From an uncultured Paracoccaceae bacterium (lineage in GTDB: Bacteria > Pseudomonadota > Alphaproteobacteria > Rhodobacterales > Rhodobacteraceae), in assembly GCA_913060475.1 (NCBI GenBank), contig CAJXSD010000004.1:1-64000 (forward strand): 64,000 nucleotides of DNA, given 5' to 3'. Made by a program: the position numbers and the translations under genes. How positions within the stretch are numbered: position 1 is the first letter of the stretch; every line of letters begins with the position of its first letter. Below, one piece after another: positions 59,679 to 61,847 of the stretch. Below the pieces are notes generated by a model that was not told the origin of the DNA, searched no databases, and saw nothing but the letters and a program-made list of their open reading frames with translations.

Positions 59679-59738
59679 CACAGCTAGGGACCTGACGGCA
59701 CACTGCCCCCTGCGAAATCGCTAAGAATGGGGACGCAG

Positions 59739-60194
59739 ATGCGTAAATTTCTGGTCGTATTGGACGACAGTCGCGAATGTCTGAACGCGATGCGGTTTGC
59801 CGCCATGCGTGCGAAAAAATCAGGGGGCGGCGTGTCGATTTTGTCGGTGATCCCCCCGGATGAATTCAATCACTGGATCGGGGTTGGCGACATTATGCGC
59901 CAAGAGGCCCGCGAACGAATCGAGGCGCATTACGAGGTGTTCGCCAAATGGATGCGGGATCGGCAAAACATTAATCCCGAACTGCACATCCGCGAAGGCG
60001 AGGCCGTTACCGAAATCTTGGCACATATCGAATCTGACCCCGAAATTGGCATTCTGGTTTTAGGGGCGGGTATCGACAAAAAAGGCCCCGGCCCCCTGGT
60101 CAGCCAGTTATCAAAAAACGCAGGGACCCTGCCCTGCCCGATAACTATTGTGCCTGGCAATCTGACCAAAGACCAACTAGAAGCATTGACTTAG
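59739..60194 (+). CDS. UspA-family universal stress protein
   Basis: 151 residues from ATG 59739 (GGGGA upstream; the ATG at 59727 is weaker). KFLVVLDDSRECLNAMRFAA at the start and the C-terminal ILVLGAGIDKKGPGPL, where the usual UspA ATP loop would be Gly-x-x-Gly-x9-Gly-Ser/Thr. The final PITIVPGNLT is typical. The function is a stress-linked nucleotide-binding protein in general; the trigger is unknown. An Irr-box-like dyad begins inside its stop codon region. Confidence 0.88.
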   Translation: MRKFLVVLDDSRECLNAMRFAAMRAKKSGGGVSILSVIPPDEFNHWIGVGDIMRQEARERIEAHYEVFAKWMRDRQNINPELHIREGEAVTEILAHIESDPEIGILVLGAGIDKKGPGPLVSQLSKNAGTLPCPITIVPGNLTKDQLEALT

Positions 60195-60206
60195 AACTAT
60201 TCTAAG
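60190..60206. promoter_or_regulatory. Irr-box (ICE)-like operator upstream of nfu
   Basis: CTTAGAA-CTA-TTCTAAG: a perfect 7-bp dyad around 3 bases. It contains TTAGAA-N3-TTCTAA, the core of the iron control element bound by Irr in alphaproteobacteria as I recall it. It lies 4 bases upstream of a candidate -35 box for the Fe-S scaffold gene nfu, where an iron-responsive regulator makes sense. The dyad is directly visible; Irr binding is inferred. irr itself is not in the window. Confidence 0.65.
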
Positions 60207-60209
60207 AAC

Positions 60210-60238
60210 TTGACATTCTAGGGCGGCGCTTGCATATC
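60210..60238 (+). promoter_or_regulatory. Candidate promoter of nfu
   Basis: TTGACA (60210-60215), 17-base spacer, CATATC (60233-60238). The -35 box is ideal and the -10 weak (3 of 6). Placed between the Irr-like box and the nfu ATG at 60264. Confidence 0.45.
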
Positions 60239-60263: not shown

Positions 60264-60824
60264 ATGTTTATTCAAACCGAATCCACACCGAACCCGGCAA
60301 CACTGAAATTCCTACCTGGCTTGACTGTGCTTGAGGATGGAACAGCTGATTTCCCATCCGCCGATGGGGCAGACGCATCACCCTTGGCGCAGCGCATATT
60401 TGCTGTGAACGGGGTCAGCGGCGTGTTCTTGGGGCGGGATTTTGTGACCGTGACCAAATTGGATGATGTCGACTGGGATCATATCAAACCATCGCTACTG
60501 GGCGCGATTATGGAACATTTCCAATCCGGTCAGCCTGCGTTGATCGGTGCAGGTGCTGCAGAACACGGCGATAACCACGATGGCGAAGATGCCGAAATCG
60601 TAGGCCAGATCAAAGAATTACTAGACACCCGCGTCCGCCCCGCAGTCGCCCAAGACGGCGGCGACATCACGTTTCATGGATTCGAAAAGGGCATCGTTTA
60701 TCTGCAAATGAAAGGCGCCTGCGCGGGCTGCCCATCATCCACCATGACGTTGAAAATGGGCATCGAAAATCTGCTGCGCCATTACATCCCCGAAGTGGCC
60801 GAGGTGCGCCCCGTTGGCCTGTGA
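60264..60824 (+). CDS. nfuA: NifU/Nfu-family Fe-S cluster carrier
   Basis: 186 residues with the N-terminal Nfu_N domain (MFIQTESTPNPATLKFLPGL, GVSGVFLGRDFVTVTK) and the C-terminal NifU domain with the Fe-S cysteines C153 and C156 (GACAGCPSSTMTLKMGIENL). It delivers [4Fe-4S] clusters to apo-proteins, like eukaryotic NFU1. GGAGG precedes the ATG. tsaB overlaps its end. An Irr-like dyad upstream points to iron-dependent control. Confidence 0.95.
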   Translation: MFIQTESTPNPATLKFLPGLTVLEDGTADFPSADGADASPLAQRIFAVNGVSGVFLGRDFVTVTKLDDVDWDHIKPSLLGAIMEHFQSGQPALIGAGAAEHGDNHDGEDAEIVGQIKELLDTRVRPAVAQDGGDITFHGFEKGIVYLQMKGACAGCPSSTMTLKMGIENLLRHYIPEVAEVRPVGL

Positions 60825-61419
60825 CCCCGTCATAATCGCATTTGACACATCGGCCGCGCATTGCGCGGCCTCTGTTCTTGTGGGGGACCAAATTCGCGCC
60901 AGCATCGTGCGATCGATGGCCAAGGGCCAAGCAGAAACCATCCCGTTACTGTTGGATGATGTCCTAGAACAGGCGGGGCAAACTTGGAACACTGTCAACG
61001 CCATTGCCGTTGGAACGGGACCTGGTAATTTTACGGGGATCCGTATCTCGGTCTCGTTGGCGCGGGGCTTGGCACTGGCCCGCGCTCTTCCGGCGATTGG
61101 GGTCACGCAGTTTGATGCGGCATGGGCCACGGTTGACGCAAATGTGGTGGCCACGGTCAGCGCCCCCCGCGATCAGGTTTATTTTGCCGCACGTGATCAG
61201 GGCACAGATAGCGCCAAACTGGGCGCGCCGTGCGATGCTGCAGCATTGGGACTGCCCGTTTTACCGCCGTTGAACGCACAAACATTGGTCGAACACATCG
61301 CACAGGTCGGCCGCCACCGCCTGTTACAGGGCCACCCAAACAGCCGTCCGGTACCATTTTACATCAAACCCGCAGACGCAGCACCGTCACGCGACATTGT
61401 CCCCCAGCGATTGACATGA
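60814..61419 (+). CDS. tsaB: tRNA threonylcarbamoyladenosine synthesis protein TsaB
   Basis: 201 residues from TTG 60814, overlapping the nfu end by 11 bases; no ATG lies near. VIIAFDTSAAHCAASVLVGD and AIAVGTGPGNFTGIRISVSL (the TsaB signature) are present. It partners TsaD in making t6A37 on ANN-reading tRNAs. rimI overlaps its stop as ATGA. The last third is short compared with TsaB of about 230 residues. Confidence 0.94.
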   Translation: MACDPVIIAFDTSAAHCAASVLVGDQIRASIVRSMAKGQAETIPLLLDDVLEQAGQTWNTVNAIAVGTGPGNFTGIRISVSLARGLALARALPAIGVTQFDAAWATVDANVVATVSAPRDQVYFAARDQGTDSAKLGAPCDAAALGLPVLPPLNAQTLVEHIAQVGRHRLLQGHPNSRPVPFYIKPADAAPSRDIVPQRLT

Positions 61420-61847
61420 CCCCCGAAAAAATGGCCGACCTGCACCACGAATCAGGACCTGACCAGCGACCTTGGACGGCCCAAGAATATGCCAGGGCGC
61501 TAGCTGATCCTAACTGTGTTGTTGTGACACAAACGACTGGTTTTGCCATTGGAACAGTTGTCATGGAGCAGGCCGAATTGCATATGATTATCGTCGATCA
61601 AAATGCCCGCCGCAGTGGCGTTGGACGCAGCCTCTTGGACCAGTTCCAACAGATCTGCATCAGCAAGGGTGCTGAAAGCATCGTATTAGAGGTCAGCACC
61701 GAAAATACAGTGGCCAAATCATTTTATTTGGCTCGTGGATTTCACCATGTTGGGACCCGAAAAAAGTATTATAAAACCCAAAATGGCGCATTTACTGATG
61801 CCCTTGTGTTATCAAAATCATTGAAATCAAACGAAAACCCAAGCTGA
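61416..61847 (+). CDS. rimI: RimI-like ribosomal-protein N-acetyltransferase
   Basis: 143 residues from ATG 61416 overlapping tsaB. GNAT motif A IIVDQNARRSGVGRSLLDQF and LEVSTENTVAKSFYLARGFH. RimI acetylates the N-terminus of ribosomal protein S18 and sits after tsaB in many bacteria. The exact substrate here is by synteny. Confidence 0.9.
   Translation: MTPEKMADLHHESGPDQRPWTAQEYARALADPNCVVVTQTTGFAIGTVVMEQAELHMIIVDQNARRSGVGRSLLDQFQQICISKGAESIVLEVSTENTVAKSFYLARGFHHVGTRKKYYKTQNGAFTDALVLSKSLKSNENPS

Follow-up and report, generated by a model that had tools for sequence, protein, structure and literature searches.

The iron exporter gene mbfA is a verified target of Irr in related bacteria. In S. 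meliloti and R. sphaeroides the iron control element (ICE) of mbfA is promoter-proximal, shows the core TTAGAA-N3-TTCTAA and lies over the core promoter or the start site (PMC7540006, PMC3413700); mutation of the TTCTAA half derepresses the S. meliloti promoter (PMC7540006). Two further boxes of R. sphaeroides that Irr binds in vitro precede the transcription start by about 40-50 nt, at ccpA, which encodes a cytochrome c peroxidase, and at P3, an internal suf promoter in iscS (PMC3413700, PMC6956336). Transcription of ccpA starts about 40 nt downstream of its box, and under iron limitation the irr mutant shows a 1.8-fold increase in it (PMC3413700). At P3, Irr binds TTAGAAATATTCTAGA in vitro, the box is about 50 nt upstream of the start, and iron dependence is seen when Irr is missing (PMC6956336). 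The promoter of iscR-suf, which like nfu serves Fe-S biogenesis, carries the same exact core in the genome studied here and in four relatives; yet no in vitro binding of R. sphaeroides Irr to the iscR P2 region was detected, although a box is predicted there, and IscR dominates at this promoter (PMC6956336), so sequence agreement with the box does not by itself establish that Irr binds.

The window analyzed here (the whole stretch of 64 kb) contains a box of the same type upstream of the Fe-S cluster carrier gene nfu. It is a perfect 7-3-7 palindrome, CTTAGAA-CTA-TTCTAAG, at 60190-60206, identified by direct reading, weight matrix and conservation and assigned to neither strand; the arms CTTAGAA (60190-60196) and TTCTAAG (60200-60206) are separated by the spacer CTA (60197-60199), and the core TTAGAA-N3-TTCTAA extends from 60191 to 60205. 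An earlier note on this DNA had described the dyad as perfect and as beginning within the usp stop region, and direct reading bears out both points: the stop codon TAG (60192-60194) falls within the left arm. The ICE core given in the note agrees with the S. meliloti mbfA element (PMC7540006) and the R. sphaeroides iscS site (PMC6956336). Its distance of 4 bases to the TTGACA box is correct when counted from start to end and has to be amended for the intervening bases, which are three. Half-site-like sequences, CTAGAA at 60178-60183 and TTCTAG at 60216-60221, flank the box and may be extra half-sites or chance.

The nfu promoter (60210-60238, forward strand), identified by direct reading and conservation, consists of the -35 box TTGACA (60210-60215), a 17-nt spacer and the -10 box CATATC (60233-60238). 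Because CATATC differs strongly from TATAAT, this promoter escaped a generic sigma-70 scan; its conservation reveals it. Transcription is predicted to start at about 60245, which would place the center of the box at about -47. This geometry appears comparable to that of ccpA and iscS-P3, whose genes differ from nfu, whereas the mbfA elements cover the core promoter or start site and the nfu box of most genomes closely precedes the -35.

Profile searches upheld the gene names proposed in the earlier note, all on the forward strand: usp, a universal stress protein (59727-60194; PF00582, 1.5e-11), nfu (60264-60824, ATG at 60264; Pfam PF08712 Nfu_N, 2.8e-32, and PF01106 NifU, 3e-29), tsaB, a subunit for t6A tRNA modification whose start overlaps the nfu stop (60814-61419; TIGR03725, 109.5 bits, cut-off 69.3), and a rimI-like N-acetyltransferase gene whose start overlaps the tsaB stop (61416-61847; TIGR01575, 3.2e-23, 82.3 bits, slightly under its NCBIfam cut-off of 86.4). 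The Fe-S role given to nfu also holds, with the correction that a carrier fits better than a primary scaffold.

The window contains a single copy of the 12 defined core bases, as the note had stated, and the same box is present elsewhere in the genome. The 2.54-Mb assembly shows three exact cores, against about 0.08 expected from base composition, and none of the backwards control pattern. They precede nfu, mbfA (NCBIfam FeExpMbfA, 549 bits) and iscR (Rrf2/IscR). When two mismatches are allowed, about one chance match is expected per window, so the exactness of the nfu core matters. A symmetrised weight matrix, a check proposed in the note, supported its reading. The matrix was built from nine mbfA and iscR boxes, taken from four relatives as well as from this genome, and nfu sites were kept out of it. 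It gave the nfu dyad 22.5 bits and the runner-up place in the window 10.4, while the maxima of simulated 64-kb sequences were 12.3 +/- 2.5, the largest being 18.4. A one-mismatch core was found inside iscS (G000 C11:20163-20177; L090 1501-1515), at a gene position that corresponds to the R. sphaeroides P3 site, which suggests that an internal suf promoter may exist in this genome too. Most other one-mismatch sites are inside unrelated ORFs and are probably chance. One such box, TAAGAA-N3-TTCTAA, is directly followed by the start codon of a peroxiredoxin-like gene (G000 C7:90581-90595; L088); it may also be chance.

The genome encodes an Irr protein with matches to the IrrA family NF045678 (199 bits, cut-off 150) and to NF045677 (195 bits, cut-off 170), and it shares with Irr of R. 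sphaeroides the reported HPH motif (PMC3413700). A second FUR-family gene is znu-linked and of Zur type, and no third FUR-family protein was found in the assembly, which is 81% complete. An Irr query detected no Fur/Mur gene, a possible neighbor on the downstream side of rimI, in the 80 relative loci described below.

Another check proposed in the note, conservation of the dyad upstream of nfu, came out in its favor and was carried out on 80 Rhodobacterales nfu loci, the closest matches to the query, to which two less biased surveys were added; the relatives share ancestry and the counts are not independent. A box with up to two mismatches was found within 250 nt upstream of nfu in 72 of the 80 loci, and seven control palindromes gave 0-10 in the same test. 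The matrix score exceeded the simulated mean maximum in 72 of 80 nfu upstream regions, and in none of the 800 control windows that these loci supplied. The core is located 3 nt before TTGA in 58 of 69 relatives, sometimes 4-6 nt, and TTGACN-N17-CATAT is present in 66 of the 72 box-bearing relatives and is also kept in most relatives without a box. The consensus of the nfu box is asymmetric, TTTAGAA-YNR-TTCYAA(A): in 68% of relatives the right arm has C as its fourth base (TTCCAA), and the left half is still TTAGAA. This asymmetric preference next to the -35 box is seen across L006-L085. Relatives also bear boxes at iscR and mbfA, the iscR core being exact in four of them; among the few genomes compared, exact boxes are found mainly at nfu, iscR and mbfA.

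The family survey comprised 296 genomes, nearly one per genus, and used the strict composite TTAGAA-N3-TTCYAA-N(1-8)-TTGA, which was found in 205 of them. Thirty composite sites were looked at: 27 precede nfu, two iscR and one another gene. Twenty genomes without the strict composite at nfu showed a degenerate or shifted box there (9) or none (11), and most of the 11 keep TTGAC...CATAT. Among the 9 is G316, a same-genus genome with the composite at iscR, which shows TTAGAATTGGTCTAA at the same place before nfu. In the order-level draw, 97 of 121 genomes showed the composite, all of them of the same family. About 20-25% of the family have no box, and irr is kept in nearly all genomes surveyed; a comparison of box and irr presence within the family was uninformative, as 48 of 50 genomes show a strong Irr match and box-less genomes mostly keep Irr.

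Outside the family the distribution was different. Among 116 nfu upstream regions read in a class-wide sample, both Rhodobacteraceae have the nfu box, whereas no box with up to two mismatches was found in 69 other Alphaproteobacteria with a strong Irr, in 34 without Irr or in 11 with a weak Irr match (the Irr-bearing G178 was counted among the Irr-less genomes; its nfu upstream region has no box and the result is unchanged). Absence from all 69 Irr-bearing genomes outside the family makes the nfu link a family-level acquisition, retained in most genera, and places it outside the ancestral alphaproteobacterial Irr regulon.

The best explanation is that the dyad is an operator for Irr, a regulator of the Fur family that responds to iron and heme, at the nfu-tsaB-rimI promoter, which we consider very probable. 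The support computed here consists of motif identity, the same motif at mbfA, iscR and iscS, the irr gene, lineage conservation and a fixed promoter geometry; the dyad is a promoter-proximal palindrome of an iron-related gene, in a genome with irr and with boxes at known targets, and is conserved at orthologs. Irr is thus expected, judging from the sequence, to bind at nfu. The motif assignment made in the note is well supported; the site has the features of a conventional Irr operator and would add a gene to the known iron-control network, and no new kind of control. Our literature search found no paper naming nfu as an Irr target; the survey of Rodionov et al. 2006, reportedly the original comparative one of Irr boxes, was outside this search and may have predicted it. 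The main additions of the present analysis are the family-restricted origin of the link, the shared target set of nfu, iscR and mbfA, and the relocated boxes, which speak for repression.

In three lineages the box is shifted onto the core promoter. The L058 dyad, TTGGAA-N3-TTCCAA, is between the -35 and -10 of nfu, that of L013 starts at the -10 and extends downstream, and that of L298 is much further downstream than is usual, at -42 relative to the nfu ATG. These positions would fit blocking of the polymerase, and together with the published ccpA, iscS-P3 and mbfA data they favor repression by Irr under low iron or heme. Given that Irr binds, repression of nfu is probable. Under low iron or heme, active Irr would bind the box beside the -35 and hold nfu transcription down; heme or iron would inactivate Irr, and nfu would rise with mbfA and isc-suf. 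Oxidative stress probably would also inactivate Irr.

The opposite direction, in which Irr docks beside the -35 box, contacts RNA polymerase and raises nfu at low iron together with isc-suf, is considered doubtful. The 3-nt gap between core and TTGA in most relatives is a rigid geometry typical of activators and could equally suit one; many transcripts are lowered in the R. sphaeroides Irr mutant, for which its authors propose activator effects (PMC3413700), and the ICE is described in both positive and negative control, at least in the title of Rudolph et al. 2006 as cited in PMC3413700. However, the relocated boxes fit blocking better, and ccpA, of similar geometry, goes up and not down without Irr (PMC3413700). 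The three relocated boxes are natural variants useful for separating the two directions, and the nfu box itself is a ready test of repression vs activation at the box-next-to--35 geometry.

It is quite improbable that the dyad is bound not by Irr but by a different regulator of iron or other metals (Mur/Fur, IscR or a further member of the Fur family). Operators of the Fur family resemble one another, a separate site is present at iscR, and in Rhodobacter isc-suf is under the control of IscR (PMC6956336). Nevertheless, the nfu motif matches both the Irr-requiring ICE of S. meliloti (PMC7540006) and the Irr-bound iscS site of R. sphaeroides (PMC6956336), the Mur target sitA is not bound by R. 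sphaeroides Irr (PMC3413700), and Irr and the znu-linked Zur are the sole FUR-family genes found in this incomplete assembly. The IscR and Mur readings were judged solely by the fit of the dyad to the ICE.

Still less probable is an RNA hairpin, acting as a usp terminator or a 5' leader structure and not as a protein site, which could account for the overlap with the usp stop and for an RNA fold z of -1.8 in this region. It is contradicted by the AT-rich stem, which lacks a following T-run and is not called by the terminator scan, by the persistence of the box at nfu where usp is 0.6-2.6 kb off or not found in the locus, and by the frequent TTCCAA right arm, which disrupts pairing in the RNA and is not compensated in the left arm; in addition, the dyad is upstream of the predicted nfu start and would be outside the nfu mRNA. 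A chance palindrome, for which only the match expected at two mismatches could speak, is ruled out by conservation, since the exact match, its genome-wide rarity and its fixed position across the family leave this reading a negligible probability.

With Irr as the preferred regulator, the Fe-S carrier Nfu would belong to the same Irr regulon as MbfA and IscR-Suf in marine bacteria that are abundant worldwide. Together, nfu, iscR and mbfA would make up a compact core regulon, open to testing, that serves the iron economy of roseobacters. Concerning the downstream genes, 66 of 79 relatives have tsaB no more than 60 nt away from nfu, and in most of them rimI is next after tsaB, the gene order being kept; co-transcription of nfu-tsaB-rimI is plausible, and nfu transcription would read through into tsaB and rimI. 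The coupling of iron to t6A modification and S18 acetylation proposed in the earlier note would have its basis in gene overlap and conserved gene order, and effects of iron on TsaB and RimI would follow only if no internal promoter compensates. The wider reading, that Irr has been rewired onto the three genes in Rhodobacteraceae so that iron or heme status sets Fe-S delivery and the supply of TsaB and RimI, is unlikely; if true, the supply of TsaB (t6A37) and RimI would link the iron response to translation through an arm found in Rhodobacteraceae only. Four relatives (L017, L030, L062 and L083) show a same-strand ORF of 140-154 amino acids with CHC-DCRR type motifs between nfu and tsaB, at about +550 to +1015 from the nfu start. 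This inserted ORF of several roseobacters presumably encodes a GFA/CENP-V family protein.
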